The notes under the pieces were generated by a model. The model had not been told where the DNA came from. It saw only the letters and a list, made by a program, of their open reading frames with translations, and searched no databases. Position numbers and translations under genes: made by a program. Shown here in pieces: positions 7,971-22,039 of a stretch of DNA of 34,938 nucleotides (its first letter is position 1; each line of letters begins with the position of its first letter). The DNA lies in the NCBI GenBank assembly GCA_903827245.1, contig CAIKHO010000005.1, forward strand, positions 1 to 34,938. The letters are read 5' to 3'. This DNA is from an uncultured Opitutia bacterium (GTDB lineage: Bacteria; Verrucomicrobiota; Verrucomicrobiia; Opitutales; Opitutaceae).

Positions 7971-8047
7971 AACGTAGCAGCCGAGGTCACGAGGCTGGAT
8001 TAAGGTGCGTGGCCCAAACTCAGCCTCGTGACCTCGGCTGCTACGTT
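7971..8047. repeat. REP-like palindrome, GTAGCAGCCGAGGTCACGAG family, copy 1
   Basis: Two perfect 27-base arms (7971-7997 and 8021-8047) surround a 23-base loop. The right arm touches the stop codon of the converging PEP-CTERM gene. Copies 2 and 3 are at 10935-11004 and 34693-34760. The sequence GGATCGCTTGCG just before this copy is repeated just before copy 3, so the element is longer than the palindrome. Confidence 0.9.
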
Positions 8048-8778
8048 CAGCAGTCTCGGCGCCGATGAATCGCCAGCTGGCGTCCGCTCGCAAAGGCAAG
8101 CAGCGCCAGACCGAAACCGAGCAAGGCCCACGTGCCGGGCTCGGGGACGAAAGTGGCCTTGAAGGCCAGGTCGTTGGTCACCGGCGAGCTTTGCAGCGTG
8201 ACCGACCACGCGGTGGTCGTCCAATCCAGCGTGGTTGAGTTATTAATGTAGACGAAATCTCCGCCCGAATAGGGATTGGCCCCGTTCGGCTGGCCCCAGT
8301 TTGCCGTCCCGTTGCCGCCGAGCCCGGTCGAACTCGCGAAGATGACGTATTTCTGGCCGGGTGACAAAGACAGGCTGCCGGGGCTGAACGTCACATTCTG
8401 GAACGAGAGCGGACCGGAGGTCGGGCCAATGATGGTCGTGGGCACACTCGTATAGAGCGCCGGCCCGGAGGCATGCGGACTGGACGGAACGGAGTCATCC
8501 CACGCATAGACATACGCCTTGATCGTGAGGGAAGTATTCAGCGTCGGCTCGATCTCGAACTGAAAACTGGAAAGGAAATGATCCCCGATCGGCACCGTGA
8601 CGGTCTCACCATACGTCTGCGTCACCCCGGGATCGCCGCTGAAACTGAAGACCGTCGAGATTCCGTCCCAGCCGGCGATGGTGTTGATGATCGTCTGCCC
8701 GTACGAGGAGATCGACGCGCCCGCGAGCCCACAACCGAGGACCAGAAGCGAAAAAATCCTTCCTTGGCGCAGCTTCAT
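8047..8778 (-). CDS. PEP-CTERM sorting-signal exported protein
   Basis: The 243-residue product has a signal peptide (MKLRQGRIFSLLVLGCGLAGASISSYGQ) and ends with a PEP-CTERM tail: VPEPGTWALLGFGLALLAF followed by a basic end (HRRRD). In the known system, this tail is recognised by an exosortase (EpsH/XrtA-like) during export, often together with exopolysaccharide production. The middle is rich in Ser, Thr, Gly and Asn, with beta-strand character (for example SLSLSPGQKYVIFASSTG), and has no catalytic motif. No exosortase gene lies in the window. I start at the ATG at 8778 because the longer upstream frame lacks a signal peptide. Confidence 0.92.
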   Translation of the reverse strand: MKLRQGRIFSLLVLGCGLAGASISSYGQTIINTIAGWDGISTVFSFSGDPGVTQTYGETVTVPIGDHFLSSFQFEIEPTLNTSLTIKAYVYAWDDSVPSSPHASGPALYTSVPTTIIGPTSGPLSFQNVTFSPGSLSLSPGQKYVIFASSTGLGGNGTANWGQPNGANPYSGGDFVYINNSTTLDWTTTAWSVTLQSSPVTNDLAFKATFVPEPGTWALLGFGLALLAFASGRQLAIHRRRDC

Positions 8779-9001
8779 CTCAAAGCGGAAGCTAGCATTC
8801 GCCACGGCACGATTCCAGCCGATATTGGGGGCGGGCGCAGAGCTTGGCCACCACGCGAAATCCGCCCGCCGGATTTTCCTGCCGCTCCGCTTCCCCTGAA
8901 ATTTACTGTTCTTTTCCGGCGTCGTGCGGAAGATGGCGCCTGCCCCGTCAGTCTTTCCCCCCCTTAACCCCTGCCGGTGTCCTGCACCCGGCATCATCGC
9001 C

Positions 9002-10780
9002 ATGAGATTACTTCCCCTGCCCCGCATTTGTTGCGCCCTCGTGTTCGTCCTTTCCACGGCCTGCCTCACCCGCGCCGCAGACCAGGTGCCCGCCGCCTTC
9101 AACGTACGCAACTATGGCGCGACCGGCGACGGCAAGACCCTCGACACCGACGCCGTCAACAAGGCCATCGACGCCGCAGCCGCGGCCGGCGGCGGCTCCG
9201 TGGTTTTCCCGAGCGGCACGTACCTCTGCTACTCCATCCGGCTGCGGAGCAACATCGAGCTCAACCTCACCCGCGGCGCGACCATCCTCGCCGCCGACCA
9301 GCCGGCGCAGGGCCAGCCCGGCTACGATCCGTCCGAGCCCAACCGCTGGGGCGACCTAGCCTACCAGGACTCCGGCCACAGCCACTGGCACAACAGCCTC
9401 ATCTGGGGCGAAAACCTGGAGAATATCTCCATCACCGGCATGGGCCGCATCTGGGGCCGAGGCCTCCTCCGCTCGGGTGGCGAGCGTTCCGGCCAGGGCA
9501 ACAAGTCCATCGCCCTCAAGCTCTGCCGCAACGTCAACCTCAAGGACTTCACCATCCAGCAGGGCGGCTGGTTCGCCGTCCTCGTCACCGGCGTCGACAA
9601 CCTCACCATCAGCAACCTCAAGGTCGACACCAACCGCGACGGCTTCGACATCGACTGCTGCCGCAATGTCCGCATTTCCGACTGCCTCGTCAACTCGCCC
9701 CAGGATGATGGCATCGTCCTGAAGAGTTCCTACGGGCTCGGCTTCGCCCGCTCCACCGACAACGTCGCCATCTCCAACTGCCAGGTCAGCGGCTACGTCA
9801 TGGGCACCGTGCTCGACGGCACCTACCAGGTCCCGCCCAGCGGCGGCGGCACCGGACGCATCAAGTTCGGCACCGAGTCCAACGGCGGCTTCCGCAACAT
9901 CTCTATCGCCAACTGCATTTTCGTCCACTGCAACGGCCTCGCCCTCGAGAGCGTTGACGGCGCCATCATCGAGGACGTGACGATCAGCAACATCTCGATG
10001 CAGTACATCTCGAACCCGCCGATCTTCATCCGCCTCGGTGCGCGCATGCGCGGACCGCAGGGGGTGGCAATCGGCGCGATCCGCCGCGTCAACATCAGCA
10101 ATGTCGTCGTGGCCTACGCCGCCTCCCGCGCAGCCTCGATCATCAGCGGCATCCCCGGCCACCCGGTCGAGGACGTCAATCTCAGCAACATCCGGATCCT
10201 CTACAAGGGTGGCGACGGCGTGATCGCGCCGCAAAAAGCCGGCGCCGCGCGCGGTGGCAACCGCCGCGCCGACGGCCGTGGCACCGGCCTGCCGCCCGCC
10301 CCGCCCGATGCCTTCGGCGTGATGGAGAATGAGGACGGCTACCCCGAGCCCACCATGTTCGGCACACTCCCCGCCTACGGCCTGTATGTGCGGCACGCGC
10401 GCCGGGTGACCGTGGACCAGGTTGACCTGAGCGTGATCGCCGAGGACGCCCGCCCGCCCATCATGCTCTACGACGTGGCCGGCGTGACCTTCCGGAACAC
10501 CCGGGTGCAAGCCGCCGCGGGCGTCCCGGCCTTCAAGCTCAACCAGGTGTCCGATTTCTCCACGGAGCGGTTCGCCGGCGTGCCCGACCAACAGCGCGAA
10601 CGGGTGGACGACGACTCCATCGCCGGCAAAGGCCTGCCGCTCCCGGGCTCGACCTACACCGCCGCCGCGCCCGCGGAGAATGTGCCCGAAAGCGCCAACA
10701 CCCCGATCCCCCGCGGCACACCCGGTCCAGGCGGCCCGCCGGTCGCGACGCCTCCGGCGGCAGCCGCGCCCAAGCCCTGA
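9002..10780 (+). CDS. Exported GH28-like pectin-degrading enzyme (polygalacturonase family)
   Basis: The start at MRLLPLPRIC gives a signal peptide with a cut near TRAADQ. The 592-residue product starts its mature part with FNVRNYGATGDGKTLDTDAV, the usual opening of right-handed parallel beta-helix pectinases. Repeated beta-helix rungs (NISITGMGRI, NLTISNLKVDT, NVRISDCLV, NVAISNC) follow. Asp213 and Asp216 in NRDGFDID and Asp235-Asp236 in QDDGIVLKS match the GH28 acidic catalytic set, and RIK is at 286-288. The GHG histidine motif of classical polygalacturonases is not visible at the expected place. The last ~60 residues are Pro/Ala rich, like a linker. It probably acts on pectin or rhamnogalacturonan outside the cytoplasm. 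It is divergent from the PEP-CTERM gene. Confidence 0.85.
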   Translation: MRLLPLPRICCALVFVLSTACLTRAADQVPAAFNVRNYGATGDGKTLDTDAVNKAIDAAAAAGGGSVVFPSGTYLCYSIRLRSNIELNLTRGATILAADQPAQGQPGYDPSEPNRWGDLAYQDSGHSHWHNSLIWGENLENISITGMGRIWGRGLLRSGGERSGQGNKSIALKLCRNVNLKDFTIQQGGWFAVLVTGVDNLTISNLKVDTNRDGFDIDCCRNVRISDCLVNSPQDDGIVLKSSYGLGFARSTDNVAISNCQVSGYVMGTVLDGTYQVPPSGGGTGRIKFGTESNGGFRNISIANCIFVHCNGLALESVDGAIIEDVTISNISMQYISNPPIFIRLGARMRGPQGVAIGAIRRVNISNVVVAYAASRAASIISGIPGHPVEDVNLSNIRILYKGGDGVIAPQKAGAARGGNRRADGRGTGLPPAPPDAFGVMENEDGYPEPTMFGTLPAYGLYVRHARRVTVDQVDLSVIAEDARPPIMLYDVAGVTFRNTRVQAAAGVPAFKLNQVSDFSTERFAGVPDQQRERVDDDSIAGKGLPLPGSTYTAAAPAENVPESANTPIPRGTPGPGGPPVATPPAAAAPKP

Positions 10781-11140: not shown

Positions 11141-11382
11141 TACCAACGTCCCGTTGGTTTTGGACTTATGTCCTGCAGGGTGGCCGCCGACCTCCCGCCG
11201 TCGCTCGATCTATGGCGGGCTGCAATGGCTTCGCGAGGGCGCCGTAGTCTTGGCGAAGGTGGCCGGGCGGCGGTGTAGCGCATCATCCACCCGGAATCCG
11301 CCGCCCGGAGGTCGGCGGCCACCTAGGCCTACTGCATGAATTGGCCAGTAGGCTAAAGTGCAAAACCTAGCGGACGTTGGTA
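11141..11382. mobile_element. MITE-like element with ~30-base terminal inverted repeats, copy 1
   Basis: The left end TACCAACGTCCCGTTGGTTT and the complement of the right end, TACCAACGTCCGCTAGGTTT, match over about 30 bases. The element is 242 bases and has no coding capacity. A second, inner inverted repeat (GGTGGCCGCCGACCTCC near 11179 and GGAGGTCGGCGGCCACC near 11308) would fold it into a long hairpin. TA dinucleotides border both ends, in the style of IS630/Tc1 elements. A shorter copy is at 22176-22349. With the repeats above, it accounts for most of the 659-base gap 10781-11439. Confidence 0.7.
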
Positions 11383-11439
11383 TTAAGCACACGTTTCGCG
11401 TGAACCGCTTAAAGCGGAGTGCAATGGCTGCGTCCGCGT

Positions 11440-13479
11440 TCACACCCCCGGTGCGAATTGCGGGTGGGCCTCGAAGCGTTGCTCGAACGCGGCCTTTTGC
11501 GACTCGTCGAGCCCGGGTGGATATTTCGAGCCGCTGCGGCGCCAGCGGGCGAGCCACTCCGCGCCGAGGAGGCGGGGTGAATCAGGGCTGTCGTCCTTGG
11601 GATCGAGCCGGGTGAAGGCCACCGTGGTGGTCGCCTTGGGCCCGGTGCCGATGCCTTCCGCCACGAAGAATCCCGCGCAGAGGAGTGCCACCCGCACGGC
11701 CGTCGCCGCCGAGTAAGTGTAAAGCTCGGCCGACCGGCCCTGGCAGTGGCGATGAATCCGCCCAAAGACGTCGGTATGCCACAGCGCCGCGTCCGTCTTT
11801 GACGAAAACGGATCGTAGAAAATCAGGTCGGGGACCGGCGCGGCTTCAAGGTGGTCGAGGAAATCCCCCCGGAGCAGCCGCCATTCGATGTGGCCCGACG
11901 CGTGGCGCCAGGATCCGTCGCGGAGGAGCCCTTGGGGTGCGGCGTGGCGCAGATGGGGAAACCAGGCGGCGTGCCGCGCGGCAAGGGTGAGCGGATCCAG
12001 GTCGCGTTCGAAGCTGACGATCGTCAGCGTACGCAGGGCGGCCGGACCCGCGGCCGCGAGTTCGCCTTCAGCGCACTCCAGCGCGGCCATGGCGTTGGAC
12101 GCGGCGCCGAGGCCGACGTCCCAGATCACGAGCGGTTGTTCGTCGTCGGCCCGCCGGCGGCGCAGGCGGACGGCGAGCCGGGATTGCCCGATATAGAGCC
12201 GGTCGGCTTCGTCCGCCGGCGCGGACACCGAGTGCATGACCTCGCCGGAACTGACCTGGCGGATGCTGGAAAAACCTTCCGCCGAAGTCTGCATCTCATA
12301 GTCGCCGAGCCGGGGCGGATGCCGGACGCGGGCCGCCGCGGGGTGGACCGGAGGGTTGTCGTCATCGTCGCGCGCAAGCTCGAGACGCTGGCGTTCGTAG
12401 TAGGCCGGGAATTCGCCACGCAGAATATGCGCGCGCATCTCGGCCATCAACCGCTGGTAAAAGGCGATGTTATGGGTCGCAAGCAGCTGCCAGCCGAGGA
12501 TCTCGTCGGACTTGATGAGATGATGAAGGTACGCGCGCGGATGGCTGCGGCAGGTGGGACAGCCACAGTCCGCGTCGAGGGGTTCCTCGGAAAATTTATA
12601 GACCGAGCGGCGGCAGTGAATGCGCCCGTGGGAAGTGAAGGCGGTGCCGCGCTGGGCCAGCTGCGTGGGGATGATGCAGTCAAACATGTCCACACCCCGG
12701 TGCACGGATTCCAGGATGTCGACCGGCGTGCCCACGCCCATGAGGTAGCGCGGGAGGTTTTTCGGCAGATGGTCGGTCGTGTGGTCGGTGAATTCGTAGC
12801 GTTGCGCGTGGGTTTCCCCGACCGCGAGTCCGCCGATGGCGAGGCCGTCGAAGGGCAGCGCACGGAGAAACTCGGCGCTGCGGACGCGGAGGTCGCGGTG
12901 ACAGGCGCCCTGCACGATGCCGAACAGCGCCTGCGGCGAATCGCCGCGCGCCCGCAGGGAGCGCTCCGCCCAGCGGTGGGTCAGGTGCATCGCGGCCTCG
13001 GTCTCGGCGTGCGGCGCCGTGGAAGGGATGCACTGGTCCAGCACCATCATGATGTCGCTGCCGATGATGCGCTGCATCTCGATGCTGGACTCGGGCGAAA
13101 GAAAATGAACCTCGCCATCCACGTAGCTGCGGAATCTGGCGCCGGCCTCCGTCATGACCCGGGACTCGGGCAGCGAAAAAATCTGGAAGCCGCCCGAATC
13201 CGTGAGCACGGGACGGTCCCAGTTCATGAACCGGTGGATGCCGCCGAATTTCTCGAAGACCTTGGGGCCGGGCCGGAGCAGCAGGTGATAGGTGTTGGCG
13301 AGGAGCACCTGCACATCGAGGGCCTTCAGTCCCTCCACGGTCATGTTCTTGACCGTCGCCTGGGTGCCCACCGGCATGAACACGGGCGTGCGCACCTCGC
13401 CATGGGCGGTCCGGAAACGCCCCGCACGGGCCTTGGAGTTGGAGGATTCCTTTTCGAGCGTGAAGGAGAGGCGGGACAT
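11440..13479 (-). CDS. tgt: Fusion of tRNA-guanine(34) transglycosylase (Tgt) and an MnmC-type SAM methyltransferase domain
   Basis: The 679-residue protein starts at MSRLSFTLEK. Residues ~1-370 form Tgt, which swaps guanine for the queuosine precursor at wobble position 34 of GUN tRNAs. Seen are Asp94 (LTDSGGFQ), Asp267 (GVDMFDC, the nucleophile) and the zinc ligands Cys305, Cys307, Cys310 and His336. The two arginines that touch tRNA in the Zymomonas enzyme (PTRxxR) are Gln273 and Gln276 here. Residues ~390-640 match the MnmC N-terminal methyltransferase (Methyltransf_30): IGQSRLAVR, VIWDVGLGAASNAM as the SAM loop, DLIFYDPFSSKTDAALW and LYTYSAATAVRVAL. In E. coli that domain makes mnm5U34. 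A plain Tgt has about 375 residues. No FAD-dependent MnmC2 domain follows. Confidence 0.93.
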   Translation of the reverse strand: MSRLSFTLEKESSNSKARAGRFRTAHGEVRTPVFMPVGTQATVKNMTVEGLKALDVQVLLANTYHLLLRPGPKVFEKFGGIHRFMNWDRPVLTDSGGFQIFSLPESRVMTEAGARFRSYVDGEVHFLSPESSIEMQRIIGSDIMMVLDQCIPSTAPHAETEAAMHLTHRWAERSLRARGDSPQALFGIVQGACHRDLRVRSAEFLRALPFDGLAIGGLAVGETHAQRYEFTDHTTDHLPKNLPRYLMGVGTPVDILESVHRGVDMFDCIIPTQLAQRGTAFTSHGRIHCRRSVYKFSEEPLDADCGCPTCRSHPRAYLHHLIKSDEILGWQLLATHNIAFYQRLMAEMRAHILRGEFPAYYERQRLELARDDDDNPPVHPAAARVRHPPRLGDYEMQTSAEGFSSIRQVSSGEVMHSVSAPADEADRLYIGQSRLAVRLRRRRADDEQPLVIWDVGLGAASNAMAALECAEGELAAAGPAALRTLTIVSFERDLDPLTLAARHAAWFPHLRHAAPQGLLRDGSWRHASGHIEWRLLRGDFLDHLEAAPVPDLIFYDPFSSKTDAALWHTDVFGRIHRHCQGRSAELYTYSAATAVRVALLCAGFFVAEGIGTGPKATTTVAFTRLDPKDDSPDSPRLLGAEWLARWRRSGSKYPPGLDESQKAAFEQRFEAHPQFAPGV

Positions 13480-13762
13480 GGGCAGGGCGCGGATGCGGGG
13501 GTCGGAAGACCGGAAACCCAGAAGGACGGACACTGCACGGCGAAAGTCAGCTGCGGATTTTGCGGCCGGAATTCCTTGAACTAGGACCCGGTAATCCGTG
13601 ACAAAAAATCCGGCTGCCATGACCAGCCTTCATGTCCTCGTGGTTCCGTTACCCATGAATGCGGGTTGTAACACGCCGTCTACCATCCGATCCTCCGTCT
13701 TCTGTCCTGCGTTTTCTGTCCCCAGGCCTTCGGCGTCCGCCGCCCACCCCAACCCCTTCCCC

Positions 13763-14413
13763 ATGTCCCACGATCCCCACGCCGAGTTCGATCACGCCGC
13801 AATGGACAAGATCGATCTCAGCCCCATCGGCGCGCTACCCGGGACTCCCGCCTATCAGGATGCTTTGAAGCGACTCTACGCGGCGCAGCAGGTTTACGCT
13901 CATGCCGACCACAAGGGCGGTCATGTCACAGCGCGCTCGCTCGCCCGGCTCCCGCTTTTTCATGCACAGAACCTCGAGGCGTTCATCGCGGGGCAAATCG
14001 CGGAAGACGTGCTGGAGTCCAATACCGCGATCTACGACCGCTACGTGCAGTCGTTGCCAGCCGGCCTGCGGGTCCGGGCGGAAAGCTGCCGGATCCCGGT
14101 GACCGGCAAGGCCGTCCACCACCGCGCCAAGCACGGGACGGTGATCCACGATCCGCTGCACACGCTGTTCCTCGTGCCCGGCGCCGGCCCCCACCCCGGG
14201 CTGCCCGGGAACTACCTGCACGGATCCTTGTTTCATGTCGGGCCCGACGAGGCGACCGGCACTTGGGAAGTGCATGTGCACGACTCCGACGACGGCGCGT
14301 CCAAGTTCAGCGCTCCCACCCGGACCGAGGCACTGGCCAAGCTGCAGGAGCTGCTGGCCAGCGCGCCCTTTCACCTCAACGAGCTGGGAGCGCTCGGCTT
14401 CAGGCTGACGTAG
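13763..14413 (+). CDS. Cytoplasmic protein of unknown function
   Basis: The 216-residue product begins MSHDPHAEFD; an upstream frame continues through sequence with no coding character. It is rich in His and Ala, with no signal peptide or membrane helix. The N-terminal half is helical (AYQDALKRLYAAQQVYAHADH). A middle segment contains conserved-looking GTVIHDPLHTLFLVPGAGPHPG, and a later one has HVHDSDDGASKF. The clustered His and Asp could bind metal, but I do not recognise a family. It is divergent from tgt (283-base gap, in which I see nothing else) and converges on the CDGSH gene. Confidence 0.7.
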   Translation: MSHDPHAEFDHAAMDKIDLSPIGALPGTPAYQDALKRLYAAQQVYAHADHKGGHVTARSLARLPLFHAQNLEAFIAGQIAEDVLESNTAIYDRYVQSLPAGLRVRAESCRIPVTGKAVHHRAKHGTVIHDPLHTLFLVPGAGPHPGLPGNYLHGSLFHVGPDEATGTWEVHVHDSDDGASKFSAPTRTEALAKLQELLASAPFHLNELGALGFRLT

Positions 14414-17046: not shown

Positions 17047-18090
17047 TCAGGGACTGGCGGACACGGGCTGCGGCCCGGGTGCGGGGCGCAGGGCGGAACC
17101 TTCGAGCCAGGTCCCGCGGGTTATCGTGGTGTGCGGATTGGCCGGGAGGCCGCGGTCGTTGCGAATCATCTTTTCGATCACGAGGCGCGCGGCCGTTCCA
17201 CCGAGGACAAAGGGATTCTGGCAGATTCCGGGCACGGCACTCTCCGGCGTGGCGTTGACGTTGAAAAACTGCATCGGGCCCACCCCGCGCTGGTCGACCC
17301 ATCCCTGCACGAGATCGAGATACAGCCGGGAGGTGACAATGGCGTCCGGCCGGTACCGCCGGCACCATGACGCGAAGGACGCCGGATGCCAGGCGGGCAG
17401 GATCAGGGGCGGGATCGCGGCAAAAAACGTGTCATGTTTTTGCTCCACCCAATACGCGGCACCGTTCAACTGCTCGGTGCGCTCATGCCCGTTCGTGGAC
17501 AAAAACAATCCGACCCGCCGGATTTTCCGCAGGCGGCATTCCATCATGATGCGGCGCATCCCGGCGTAATGGTCATGCACGAGGCGGTCGAACGGCGGGC
17601 CGGTAAAGGTGTACTCGATGACCACGGTGCAGTACCTGTCCCAATCGAGGCTGAAATCCCCGCGCGCCTGTGGCAGCGGGCCGACAATCATCCCGTGGAT
17701 GTTACGGGCCCGCAGGATGGAGTTGAGCCGCTGCTCGGTGAGATCGCCGGCGCCCAAGGCGAACAGATCCACCTTGTAGCCATATTCCTCCGCGACCGAC
17801 CGGGCACCTGCCAGATACTGCTCGTAAGGGGAGCCCGGATGTCTGGCGCCCACGACGAAGGCGATGGTATCGTGAAAACGCCGCTCCTTGCGAGAGCGCC
17901 GGAGCGCGATCAAGGCCGACACCAAGGGATGCGGCCGGTAATTCATTTCCTGGGCGATCCGACGGATGCGGCTGCGAGTTGTCTCCGAAAGACGCGTGTC
18001 GTTCCGGAGGGCCAGCGAGACGGTCGTCTGATGGACCCCGGCGGCCGCAGCGACATCTTTCATCGAGGGAGGACGCGGGTGGGATGACAT
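17047..18090 (-). CDS. LacI/GalR-family transcriptional regulator
   Basis: The 347-residue protein begins with a LacI helix-turn-helix (MKDVAAAAGVHQTTVSLALRND, residues ~10-31) and the hinge region RIRRIAQEMNYRPHP (~41-55). A periplasmic-binding-protein-like sensor domain follows (~75-330; for example IHGMIVGPLPQ, RPDAIVTSRL and a closing RLVIEKMIRNDRGLP). Such proteins repress sugar genes until a sugar or sugar phosphate binds. It is divergent from the TonB-dependent receptor gene, with 193 bases between the two start codons, a common arrangement in carbohydrate-scavenging bacteria. The probable target is the shared promoter region. The inducer cannot be read from the sequence. Confidence 0.92.
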   Translation of the reverse strand: MSSHPRPPSMKDVAAAAGVHQTTVSLALRNDTRLSETTRSRIRRIAQEMNYRPHPLVSALIALRRSRKERRFHDTIAFVVGARHPGSPYEQYLAGARSVAEEYGYKVDLFALGAGDLTEQRLNSILRARNIHGMIVGPLPQARGDFSLDWDRYCTVVIEYTFTGPPFDRLVHDHYAGMRRIMMECRLRKIRRVGLFLSTNGHERTEQLNGAAYWVEQKHDTFFAAIPPLILPAWHPASFASWCRRYRPDAIVTSRLYLDLVQGWVDQRGVGPMQFFNVNATPESAVPGICQNPFVLGGTAARLVIEKMIRNDRGLPANPHTTITRGTWLEGSALRPAPGPQPVSASP

Positions 18091-18178: not shown

Positions 18179-18283
18179 GACCTTGTTACCTACCCTGTCC
18201 GAAGTGCCGCAGCCTGAGATCATGCATTTGTTCTTCATGGACAGATGCGTCCACGGGTCCGGCCAATCCAAGCACCTAGCACC

Positions 18284-21200
18284 ATGAAAATGCCCCGTTG
18301 TTTATCGACCTGTTCCGCGGACCGCCTCTGGGCATCCGCTTTGATGGCGGCTGCCTTGCTCTATCCCTCGCAGACTTGGGCCCAGGCTGCCGCGCCGGAT
18401 GCGGCCGCCCTCGCCAAGTATGACAAGAACCACAACGGCGTACTGGACCCGGATGAAATTTCCGCGATGCACGCCGACCAGGCCAAGGCGGCGCAAACCC
18501 CGGTTTCGAGTGCGCCGGGAGCGACCAACAACCAGGTCGTGACCCTGAACCCCTTCGCGGTCGATGCGAGTAAGGACATCGGCTATTACGCGGAGAACAC
18601 GCTCGCCGGCTCGCGCCTGAACACCAACGTCGGCGATCTGGCCAGCTCGATCACGGTCGTGACCAAGCAGCAGCTCGAGGACACCGGTTCGCTCAACATC
18701 AACGATGTGTTCCTGTACGAGGCGAACACCGAGGGAGCCGCGACTTATACGCCCCTCCAAATCAATCGCGGCCAAGCTGCGGATGTGATCGGCGGATATA
18801 GTGACACCGGCTCAGTCACCAATGCGGCGACCGCCAACCGCGTCCGCGGTCTTGGCTCGGCGGACACGGCCCAGAACAACTATCCGACCCTGGCCCGCCT
18901 GCCCTTCGACTCCTACAATACACAGTCGGTCGAAATCAACCGCGGCCCGAACTCGATGCTTTTCGGCTCCGGCGGCGCCTCAGGCATCGTCAACAATTCG
19001 ACCGCGGAGGCGGCGTTGAACGTGCAGAAAAGCCAGGTCGCGTTCCGCTTCGGCAGCTTTGGCGCGCATCGCGAGAGTCTCAGCACCAACGTGCCGCTGG
19101 GCAAGAAGGTGGCCCTCTATGTGGCGGGGCTTTACGACGACCAGGAATATGAGCGGAAGCCCTCGTCGACCATCACCCGCCGCCAGTACGCCGCGATTAC
19201 GGTCCAGCCCTGGGCTTCGAGCAAGCTGACGGGTGATTACGAGCACTATTCCAACCAGGCGCACGCGCCGAATTTCGTCGCGCCGCTCGATGAGATCACC
19301 ACGTGGCTCAACGCGGGCAAGCCGGCCTGGGACCCAACCACGCAGATGATTACCTTCGCCAACGGCACGATCGCGGGGCCGTTCCTGAATTCAACGCTCG
19401 ACCCGCGGTACACGGCCAACCTCAAGGCCGCCGGCTACACCGCCAACGGCTCCGGCGCCTTCACCAGCTCGACCTCGGCCTTCTACGTTCCCTCCTTCAC
19501 TCCCGAAACCCATAACACGATCTTCGTGAACAATGGCCAGATCACCAGCGCCTATTTTTCCAGCGGTGGCTCGGGCGCCGGCACCAATGGCTCGGCCGCC
19601 ATTCCGACCGCGACCGCGCGGACGCTGCAGCAATGGATCGCCCAGAACGAGAGCATGATCATCACCACCCAGGCACCCACCCCGGTGCCGACGGTCGCCG
19701 GCGCCACCGGCTATACCACTTGGTATGAACGCGGCATCACCAACCCGGCCCTTTACGATTATACCCGGGATAGCGTCGCCGCCTCGAACTATGGCGCTTC
19801 GGAGGCCCAGAACTTTCACCTGGAATTCAACCAGCGGATCTTGAGCAATCTCAACATGGAACTCGGCTGGTTCCGTCAGGAAATCCAGCAATGGGACCAC
19901 TATGGGGTGGGTCAGGGAAACCAGCTCGAGCGAATCCAAGTGGACGCCAACTCCAAAATGATGGACGGAACACCCAATCCCTATTTCGGCGACCCGTACA
20001 CCTACGATTATCAAATGGTGACGAAGTACACCCCGGAACAGAGCAACAATCTGCGCGCGTTGCTGGCGTACGACTACGACTTCACCAAGCATGAGGGCTG
20101 GACCCGCTTCCTCGGCAAGCACCGCCTCGTGGGGCTGGCCAGCCAGCAGAAAGACTGGACCAACAACGTGAACTACACCGTTTCGTACGACTCCGGCGAT
20201 CCGCGGTTCCTGCCCAACGTGAATCCGCCCATTGCCAACAATTTCATCTTTGGCTCCGGCTCCAACAATCTCGAACGCCATTACTACGTCGGCACGGCCG
20301 GGAACGGAGCCATTACGAAGGGATCGCAACAGCTCGGCGAACCGGGCTTCGGCGGGCCCGGCAAGGTGCAATTTCACTATTACGACTGGAACTCGACCAA
20401 CACCTGGCAAACAACCACGATGGGCATCGACGCCAATCAAAGCGGCGGCGGCGCTCAGGACAAAATCACGTCGTCGACCAGTTTTGCCTATCAGGGCAGT
20501 CTCTGGAGCGATCGGGTCATTCCGTTGCTTGGCACTCGCTATGATAAAGTCAGGATCTGGACCCATGCCAGCGGCATCCCGACGCCGGTCGCCTATACAA
20601 ATGGTTTCGGCAATTACGCAGTCACCAAATGGATGGATCCTACTCCGTTGGACTCAGGTGGCGATACCACCACGCTGGGTGGGGTCATGCGGCCGTTCGG
20701 CGGCTGGAGGTACATCGATGAGCGCGCGGCCCAGGGAAACTACTTCTGGGATTTCGTCCGCGGTCTGGCCTTCAGTTACAACCATTCGTCAAATTTCACC
20801 GCGCCCACGTCGCGTAACACCGACTTCTATGGCGTAAACCTGCCCAAGCCCTCCGGCCAGGGACAGGATTACGGCATCCGGGGCAGCATGCTCAACAACA
20901 AGCTTTCCTGGAGCGTCAACTGGTACAAATCCACCGCCGAAAAAGCCCTCGCCACCGCGGCGTCGCTCCCGATCGGCCGGGCGGAACGCATCGACAACAG
21001 CGCGCTCTACACGTGGGCGACCGAGGTTGTGCGCATCCGCAATGGCGAGGATCCAGCCGGGCAGTTTTTCAATAACAACACGGCCGTGCCGCTCACGGTC
21101 GACGAGCAGATCGCGATCAACAAGCTGACCGAAGGACCCAACTCGTTCGTCAATCAATTTGACGTCAACAGCAACGGCGTGAACCAGGTGAAATGGAACT

Positions 21201-22039
21201 CCGGCATTATCCAAGGCACCAATTCATTGAAGTCGAAGGGCGTGGAACTTTCGATCATCTTCAATCCGACGCGCAGCTGGAACATCAAGATTACCGCCGG
21301 ACAGCAGGCTTCGAGCTACAGCAATGCAGCCGGCGAGCTTTCGCAATGGCTCTATGGCCAGGGCGGAACCACCACCAATCCGACCCCCACCAGCCGCCTG
21401 AACTACTGGCAGACCTTGACGGCACCGGACCTGCAGACCGTCTATACCCTGAATAGCGGCAATAAACTGTTTCTGGGTAATTTCTGGGGCAGTTACGGCT
21501 ACACCGGTGACGCGGGCTCCAACACGACGGGCCCCACCAGCACCCCGAAGAGCACCTACTACGGTATCGTCGACTCGCAGTTGTATTCCTTGATCACCCT
21601 GCAAAACCAACGGACGCCGAGCGAGCGGGAATATTCCGCCAGTCTGATCAGCAACTACGCGTTCACGGAAGGCAGGATGAAGGGCTGGGCGGTGGGTACC
21701 GGCGTGCGTTGGGCCTCCAATGCCGTCTCCGGTTACTACGACAGCTACGATCCGGCCCTGTTCACCCATCCGTCCGACACCCAGAATCTGATTTCCTATC
21801 CGGACCTAAAGTCCCCGCAACATACTCCGGCTTTGTTCAACTTGGATGCATGGGTTTCCTACACCACGCGCCTGCCGGTTTTTGGGAAAAGCGTTCGGGC
21901 AAAGTTCCAGCTCAACGGCCGGGCTCTGACTGAGAGTGGCGGACTGACCACCATTCTCTATGAACCCGATGGCACGCCTGCCCAATACCGCATCAACGAT
22001 CCGCGGACATTCTTCATGACCTCGACGTTCGACTTTTGA
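18284..22039 (+). CDS. TonB-dependent outer-membrane receptor with an N-terminal EF-hand
   Basis: The 1251-residue protein starts at MKMPRCLSTC and has a signal peptide ending near QTWAQA. Directly after it lies a perfect 12-residue EF-hand loop, D47-K-N49-H-N51-G-V-L-D55-P-D-E58, that should bind calcium. Then come a TonB-box-like VVTLNPFAV (~85-93), the plug domain (GYYAENTLAGSRLN, SSITVVTKQQLED, up to ~200 with EINRGPNSMLFG) and a long beta-barrel ending in TFFMTSTFDF; the terminal Phe is typical of outer-membrane barrels. The size, well above the usual 650-1000 residues, is common for receptors of this group that import oligosaccharides. It is divergent from the LacI-type gene. The cargo is unknown. 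Confidence 0.93.
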   Translation: MKMPRCLSTCSADRLWASALMAAALLYPSQTWAQAAAPDAAALAKYDKNHNGVLDPDEISAMHADQAKAAQTPVSSAPGATNNQVVTLNPFAVDASKDIGYYAENTLAGSRLNTNVGDLASSITVVTKQQLEDTGSLNINDVFLYEANTEGAATYTPLQINRGQAADVIGGYSDTGSVTNAATANRVRGLGSADTAQNNYPTLARLPFDSYNTQSVEINRGPNSMLFGSGGASGIVNNSTAEAALNVQKSQVAFRFGSFGAHRESLSTNVPLGKKVALYVAGLYDDQEYERKPSSTITRRQYAAITVQPWASSKLTGDYEHYSNQAHAPNFVAPLDEITTWLNAGKPAWDPTTQMITFANGTIAGPFLNSTLDPRYTANLKAAGYTANGSGAFTSSTSAFYVPSFTPETHNTIFVNNGQITSAYFSSGGSGAGTNGSAAIPTATARTLQQWIAQNESMIITTQAPTPVPTVAGATGYTTWYERGITNPALYDYTRDSVAASNYGASEAQNFHLEFNQRILSNLNMELGWFRQEIQQWDHYGVGQGNQLERIQVDANSKMMDGTPNPYFGDPYTYDYQMVTKYTPEQSNNLRALLAYDYDFTKHEGWTRFLGKHRLVGLASQQKDWTNNVNYTVSYDSGDPRFLPNVNPPIANNFIFGSGSNNLERHYYVGTAGNGAITKGSQQLGEPGFGGPGKVQFHYYDWNSTNTWQTTTMGIDANQSGGGAQDKITSSTSFAYQGSLWSDRVIPLLGTRYDKVRIWTHASGIPTPVAYTNGFGNYAVTKWMDPTPLDSGGDTTTLGGVMRPFGGWRYIDERAAQGNYFWDFVRGLAFSYNHSSNFTAPTSRNTDFYGVNLPKPSGQGQDYGIRGSMLNNKLSWSVNWYKSTAEKALATAASLPIGRAERIDNSALYTWATEVVRIRNGEDPAGQFFNNNTAVPLTVDEQIAINKLTEGPNSFVNQFDVNSNGVNQVKWNSGIIQGTNSLKSKGVELSIIFNPTRSWNIKITAGQQASSYSNAAGELSQWLYGQGGTTTNPTPTSRLNYWQTLTAPDLQTVYTLNSGNKLFLGNFWGSYGYTGDAGSNTTGPTSTPKSTYYGIVDSQLYSLITLQNQRTPSEREYSASLISNYAFTEGRMKGWAVGTGVRWASNAVSGYYDSYDPALFTHPSDTQNLISYPDLKSPQHTPALFNLDAWVSYTTRLPVFGKSVRAKFQLNGRALTESGGLTTILYEPDGTPAQYRINDPRTFFMTSTFDF

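Follow-up and report, generated by a model that had tools for sequence, protein, structure and literature searches.

The window, a stretch of 34,938 nucleotides from an uncultured Opitutia bacterium of the family Opitutaceae (contig CAIKHO010000005.1), carries on its minus strand a single open frame of 726 amino acids (11440..13620) that encodes a Tgt domain followed by a methyltransferase tail. An upstream ATG lies at 13620, and 13479 is the likely start, giving 679 residues, because MSRL is the N terminus in 62 of 74 fusion relatives when a script picks the start codon nearest the profile start; this agrees with the extent of 11440-13479 given in the original prediction. A Pfam search of the protein at an E value of 0.01 returned only TGT (E 6.1e-147) and Methyltransf_30 (PF05430; E 4.6e-12, 46.4 bits against a cut-off of 22) and found no FAD oxidase domain (MnmC1). 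Thus, a complete Tgt is fused to a methyltransferase tail in one frame, the tail passes the Methyltransf_30 profile check that had been proposed for it, and all three motifs quoted for the protein beforehand are present. The features of the gene are collected in Table 1.

Table 1. Features of the fusion gene and its product. Zm, Z. mobilis TGT; G000, the window's genome.
Feature	Residues	Position in window	Strand	Basis or remark
tgt2-mtase fusion gene		11440..13479	(-)	679 aa, stop codon included
Tgt domain	16-363	12391..13434	(-)	PF01702 at G000:C5:12391-13434, E 8.7e-148
LDQC	147-150	13030..13041	(-)	D148 and C150 correspond to Zm D156 and C158, kept; Q149 corresponds to Zm E157
GGLAVGE	216-222	12814..12834	(-)	preQ1-type base pocket, Zm G230-E235 region
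FDCIIPTQLAQ	266-276	12652..12684	(-)	nucleophile D267 corresponds to Zm D280
Linker	371-390	12310..12369	(-)	fast evolving; aa identity 0.45-0.75 in 8 pairs
MnmC2-type SAM methyltransferase domain	391-679 + stop	11440..12309	(-)	profile and fold matches
SGEVMHS	411-417	12229..12249	(-)	E413 at the place of MnmC Asp26
SAM loop WDVGLGAASN	453-462	12094..12123	(-)	motif present, aligned
Catalytic motif DPFSSKTDAALW	556-567	11779..11814	(-)	D556 and F558 at MnmC Asp178 and Phe180
TYSAATAVR block	588-596	11692..11718	(-)	motif and alignment

In a structure model of the two-domain protein (pTM 0.62), the block means of pLDDT in the linker were 61 and 64 and the relative placement of the domains was poorly fixed, so we make no claim of a channel between the two sites. 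Scans of 11200-13800 for promoters and terminators produced no signal beyond chance, and the only match to Rfam and ARAGORN searches across the window was a tRNA-Leu. Elsewhere in the window are genes for a PEP-CTERM protein (8047-9111, minus strand) and for a LacI-family regulator (17047-18090, minus strand), the latter divergent from a gene for a large protein with a TonB-receptor plug domain (18245-22039, plus strand).

Distribution of the fusion gene

When 84,980 species genomes were scanned with two tail patterns, 542 stretches matched, 504 of them encoding a relative of the tail, and we kept and examined the best 80 of these 504. Both domains lie in one frame at 74 of the best 80 loci, including L107, which is cut at its start; of the remaining six, L066, L072, L085, L088 and L098 are truncated within the gene by the end of a contig and L112 is split. 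Most of the 80 are labeled Opitutaceae or other Verrucomicrobiota, and the other labels are Deltaproteobacteria, Riflebacteria, Spirochaetes, Acidobacteria (Sulfopaludibacter), Binatia and Bacteroidetes; since many of these loci are on contigs of metagenome-assembled genomes (MAGs), some labels may reflect misbinning. The recurrence of the domain order across Verrucomicrobiota, which the original prediction had put forward as a point to search, therefore holds, and it extends to several phylum labels.

Because the window's genome consists of 91 contigs, one might suppose that misassembly or a frameshift had joined two genes. We give this next to no credence, and the 74 loci fused in one frame in other genomes already refute it. 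In addition, over 8 pairs the dN/dS ratio was about 0.06-0.15 for Tgt and 0.13-0.25 for the tail, with several of the underlying dS values near or above 1, and purifying selection acts on both domains.

We also sampled 285 genomes of the window's phylum at a completeness of at least 95%. The full fusion was found in 29 of these, 5 more, all of one genus (g80), show a long frame that matches the tail in part, and 12 tail matches are stand-alone copies. Three of the 29 fusions (G157, G233 and G266) were flagged with one stop inside the matched stretch, which may be the natural end, because the G266 gene (L210) has an intact frame once translated. In genus g80, the four genomes that we translated (G166, G170, G231 and G293, with G167 left out) encode a Tgt with a degenerate tail, the methyltransferase being shortened at L224:2847-4568 (G166), L225 (G231), L226:2598-4328 (G293) and L214 (G170); in two of these sequences that we inspected, the DPF motif has been lost and Methyltransf_30 no longer matches. 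Clustering of the neighbors of 93 loci revealed no general partner gene, as the largest cluster spans 11 loci and a fixed place beside the fusion is held at no more than 8, mostly within the same small group. Relatives of the tail were absent from 50,697 phage and 72,556 plasmid records.

A divergent Tgt beside a second Tgt

The fusion protein scores 452.7 bits against the NCBIfam Tgt model TIGR00430, over the equivalog cut-off of 306.75, and its Tgt part superposes on Z. mobilis TGT (1ozm/1q2r) with Z 51.4 and 1.7 Å over 365 residues. Zm positions 102, 103, 107, 156, 158, 203, 260 and the zinc ligands are unchanged in 75 of 75 aligned rows of the fused type, as are positions 230-233 and 235 of the base pocket and the nucleophile D280; position 106 is Phe or Tyr. 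The pocket motif GGLAVGE is invariant in the 59 fusion rows of alignment A3. Asp280 is described as the nucleophile of Tgt and Asp102 as the base (PMC6165067), and GGLAVG is given as the preQ1-type pocket, with queuine-type pockets reading GG[LS][AS]G (PMC11570991).

Other residues near the active site differ from those of canonical enzymes. The position of Zm E157 is Glu in 59 of 59 canonical (Tgt1) rows and Gln in 72 of the 75 fused-type rows. The positions of R286 and R289 are both Arg in all 59 canonical rows; Q273 and Q276 stand in their place in the window's protein, and Gln is found in 74 and 66 of the 75 rows, respectively. We take R286 and R289 of the Z. mobilis enzyme to read U35. 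Arg286 is placed, in one study, in a helix lining the cavity that joins the ribose-34 and phosphate-35 pockets of the twisted dimer (PMC5395182). Since the fused Tgt lacks this arginine pair, whose presence is our own criterion for a canonical Tgt and not a published definition, we class it as a distinct paralogous subfamily, Tgt2. In a quick tree built without bootstrap, 32 fused rows occupied one side of a branch of length 1.12 with SH-aLRT 100, apart from the 59 canonical rows. Bacterial Tgt and Tgt2 have in common the whole domain, the nucleophile, the general base, the preQ1 pocket and the zinc ligands; they differ in clade and in the three mostly Gln positions, and Tgt2, unlike ordinary Tgt, carries a C-terminal methyltransferase and occurs alongside another Tgt.

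On the sequence comparisons, the fused Tgt is a divergent paralogue found on top of another Tgt. In the 285-genome sample, at least two TGT matches were present in 34 of 34 fusion-type genomes versus 5 of 251 others, and a second fused tail was absent from all 34. The same was true of TGT matches in 42 of 42 genomes searched from those behind the best 80 loci, a set that shares at least five assemblies with the phylum sample (by QueA position, G313=G117, G316=G297, G318=G106, G326=G217 and G342=G286). In at least G316, G318, G319, G322, G338 and G344 the second TGT gene is seen merely as fragments, and in G331 the fused gene was split in this search. Tgt2 was never seen as the sole Tgt in the fusion genomes searched.

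The window's genome encodes a canonical Tgt (C56:90828-91901), QueA (C1:41561-42640) and QueF (C44:7877-8110). We considered the fusion as a stand-in for a missing QueA and rejected this, because QueA, which acts on preQ1-tRNA, is present in 79 of 80 genomes when controls are counted (in 30 of the 31 with an intact fusion) and in 42 of the 42 behind the best loci. The one genome lacking a QueA match, G002, belongs to the window's genus, is 98% complete and has both Tgts and QueF, so preQ1 may be the end product there. One further genome, G241, has two Tgt and two QueA matches and no match to the fused tail.

QueF had no match in 3 of the 31 intact-fusion genomes of the window's phylum. It was clear in 6 of 12 fusion genomes labeled as other phyla, with a seventh (G324) barely over the cut-off, and in none of the three Riflebacteria fusion genomes. 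These three (L122, L126 and L131, in G336, G339 and G343) have the fusion and QueA with no QueF match over the cut-off, and each has two nearly full-length MnmG matches. Where QueA is present and QueF is not, preQ1 could therefore come from salvage or from an unrecognized enzyme, or the MAGs could be incomplete; these gaps count against a reaction that depends on preQ1.

The methyltransferase domain and its relatives

We compared a profile of 58 tails with PDB sequences and found five clear matches, all MnmC or MnmC2 (3vyw, 1.4e-10; 2qy6, 3e-10; 3pvc, 2.4e-8; 3ps9, 4.8e-8; 3awi, 5.7e-8); the sole other match up to an E value of 1 was a precorrin enzyme at 0.47. The model of the tail (pLDDT 91.9) superposes on 3vyw with Z 23.5 and 3.1 Å over 242 residues and on the other MnmC entries with Z 19.4-22.1, spermidine synthases coming next at 17.5. 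The MnmC2 model NF033855 also matches the tail (5.3e-18, 65.7 bits), under its equivalog cut-off of 136. A candidate second PF05430 protein in the window's genome, on contig C27, was set aside since Spermine_synth fits it slightly better (25.5 versus 22.7 bits).

The tail had been labeled originally as the MnmC N-terminal domain, or MnmC1. The kinship to the methyltransferase of MnmC stands and the name does not, since MnmC1 designates the FAD oxidase domain and the methyltransferase domain is MnmC2, or MnmC(m) (PMC3648344). That paper is also the source for Asp26 and for Asp178, the proposed base that activates the amine. Within DPFSSKTDAALW, the D, F, S and K are invariant in the 59 fusions of alignment A3 and the T and D are conserved at 90% or more; E413 is invariant in the same alignment, its pairing with Asp26 being taken from the alignment to 3pvc. 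Compared with MnmC2, MnmC(m) and MnmD (3vyw, 3ps9 and 2qy6), the tail has the same fold, SAM loop position and catalytic Asp and Phe, and it differs in lying behind a Tgt, in lacking the FAD domain, in scoring under the equivalog cut-off and in the loop after the catalytic Asp, which reads KTD in the fusion tails and KNP in E. coli MnmC. KTD is found in 0 of 20 aligned unfused relatives, among which the loop varies too, and the place of its D is taken by N in 11 of 12 stand-alone rows and in 6 of the 8 other unfused rows.

In a tail tree rooted at its midpoint, with a bootstrap that had yet to settle, the fused tails group as a single clade (99/96) that joins stand-alone enzymes of the same class (100/100), apart from a radical-SAM group. 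One genome, G244, has both a fused copy and a stand-alone MnmC2-like copy. The radical-SAM group came from weaker tail matches of ~590 amino acids that we had taken for bifunctional MnmC; this was wrong, as five of the eight fetched (L215, L217, L218, L219 and L220) carry TIGR01212 over its cut-off in the same frame, while L216 was outside the TIGR01212 test and L222 and L223 are short frames. In these five, which come from families in other classes of the phylum, a TIGR01212 radical-SAM protein is fused to an MnmC2-type methyltransferase (for example, L215:316-2223 in G088), probably as a one-chain route to mnm5U. As in the Tgt2 fusion, the MnmC2-type domain of L215 is the C-terminal half; the partner and the clade are different, and the loop is KNP in L215 and varies in the rest of the group. 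We take TIGR01212 to be MnmL. A search of the MnmM paper (PMC9976899) did not find that name.

Possible reactions of the fusion enzyme

The side chain of preQ1 is an aminomethyl group, the same -CH2-NH2 kind of group as in nm5U. According to PMC3648344, it is the amine of nm5U, a primary aminomethyl amine on the wobble base, that the MnmC2-type family methylates. An intact preQ1 pocket joined to an amine methyltransferase would thus be most simply read as an inserter and N-methylator of preQ1, and on balance we lean toward a function in which Tgt2 inserts preQ1 and the fused domain methylates its amine, giving N-methyl-preQ1 at position 34. In this reaction, Tgt2 would swap guanine for preQ1 (7-aminomethyl-7-deazaguanine) via the covalent tRNA-aspartate intermediate of ordinary Tgt, and the MnmC2-type domain would move the methyl group of SAM to the primary amine just delivered, the product being 7-(methylaminomethyl)-7-deazaguanosine. 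With the sites joined, the amine would be methylated ahead of any use by QueA, which would take these tRNAs out of the queuosine pathway. The separate canonical Tgt1 and QueA would still make queuosine (Q) on other tRNAs, and because both are retained, the product would branch off from queuosine and not replace it. The loss of the two arginines beside the nucleophile leaves room for a different tRNA set, and Tgt2 may act on one. What is observed is the two domains with intact active-site residues, a single paralogous clade, the presence of another Tgt and, in nearly all cases, of QueA, and purifying selection on both domains; the base, the methylated product, the tRNA set and the competition with QueA are inferred. 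An analogy is offered by MnmC and the radical-SAM fusion, in which an MnmC2-type domain is likewise linked to the enzyme providing the amine that it methylates, a role that we presume for the radical-SAM partner.

The tail could instead be an ordinary MnmC(m)/MnmD that converts nm5(s2)U34 to mnm5(s2)U34, with the Tgt part serving as a second wobble enzyme or as an anticodon-binding scaffold. We consider this unlikely, and the gene content of the fusion genomes bears on it from both sides. The tail belongs to the MnmC2 fold family and keeps the catalytic residues. A separate mnmG, one of the genes that the original prediction wanted looked up, is represented in the window's genome by a match at C21:65898-67769, and MnmG was over the cut-off in 63 of 69 genomes searched, two of the doubly sampled genomes appearing twice. 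With MnmG, which nm5U requires, in nearly all fusion genomes searched, nm5U would be available to the fusion enzyme, although no convincing MnmG was found in three fusion MAGs, G332, G333 and G341, which may be incomplete. TIGR01212 was over the cut-off in 0 of the 31 intact-fusion genomes, and none of the 20 fusion genomes from the window's family had MnmM over its cut-off; a further methyltransferase of this kind was thus not seen in them. MnmM (YtqB) methylates a wobble aminomethyl amine (PMC9976899), as is proposed for the fusion tail, and belongs to a separate Pfam family, PF06962. Within the window's family, its absence from fusion genomes against its presence in 4 of 18 non-fusion genomes is a weak exclusion that nm5U methylation would predict as well. 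MnmM was also found in 3 of 3 genomes tested of genus g80, where the tail is degenerate and Tgt2 is kept, and this can be read as redundancy.

Against nm5U as the substrate, MnmM is over the cut-off in 6 of the 31 intact-fusion genomes (G131, G199, G232, G233 and G259, all of one genus, and G266), despite the mutual exclusivity reported for mnmM and mnmC (PMC9976899), and G244 has a stand-alone MnmC2-like copy in addition to the fused one. Furthermore, among the 9 non-fusion members of the family in which PF05430, TIGR01212 and MnmM were all searched, 6 lack any match over the cut-off, so mnm5U methylation seems dispensable there. KTD occurs only in the fused rows, though the loop is variable among the unfused ones, and the site for base exchange in Tgt2 is fully constrained, as would not be required of a scaffold. 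In G014, G015, G020 and G177, the PF06962 matches lie in long frames of 553-691 amino acids, which are possible fusions or overlong frames.

It is about equally doubtful that Tgt2 inserts a 7-deazaguanine and the tail methylates something else, be it the secondary amine of a Q-type base, another inserted base or another atom of the anticodon loop. The mostly Gln residues at R286 and R289 beside an intact nucleophile, together with a KTD loop peculiar to the fusion, mean that both specificities may have moved; some fusion genomes lack QueF, and g80 keeps Tgt2 with no recognizable methyltransferase motif. However, Tgt2 shares its pocket residues with enzymes that use preQ1, and the catalytic pair of Asp and Phe is consistent with methylation of an amine.

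N-methylation of inserted preQ1 thus remains the function that we slightly favor. It retains the link to wobble modification that the original prediction drew, and the idea advanced there that the chain coordinates two wobble modifications is less favored in view of the second, divergent Tgt, the KTD loop and the MnmM of 6 of 31 intact-fusion genomes. The alternative suggested at the same time, a queuosine intermediate as the target, appears to be the better reading, and the resemblance of side chains would specify that intermediate as preQ1. More tentatively, and with rather less confidence than we place in the reaction itself, we propose that a horizontally spread Tgt2 fusion makes N-methyl-preQ1 on a tRNA set that does not receive queuosine, so that the G34 tRNAs of these bacteria would be split between two 7-deazaguanine end products. 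Within the open-licence literature, a scope that excludes most subscription papers and preprints, we recognized no paper on a Tgt-methyltransferase fusion or on methyl-preQ1.

The fusion is probably present in hundreds of species, given 504 tail-relative stretches and fusion at 74 of the best 80 examined. The domain pair may also serve as a compact tool for placing an amine at a single RNA position and capping it there. If the proposal is true, sequence alone will have predicted both a tRNA nucleoside that is new and a point at which queuosine synthesis branches. Why G34 tRNAs carry Q is still debated, and such a natural enzyme, by turning preQ1 toward a different end product, would offer a way to test what the Q side chain does.
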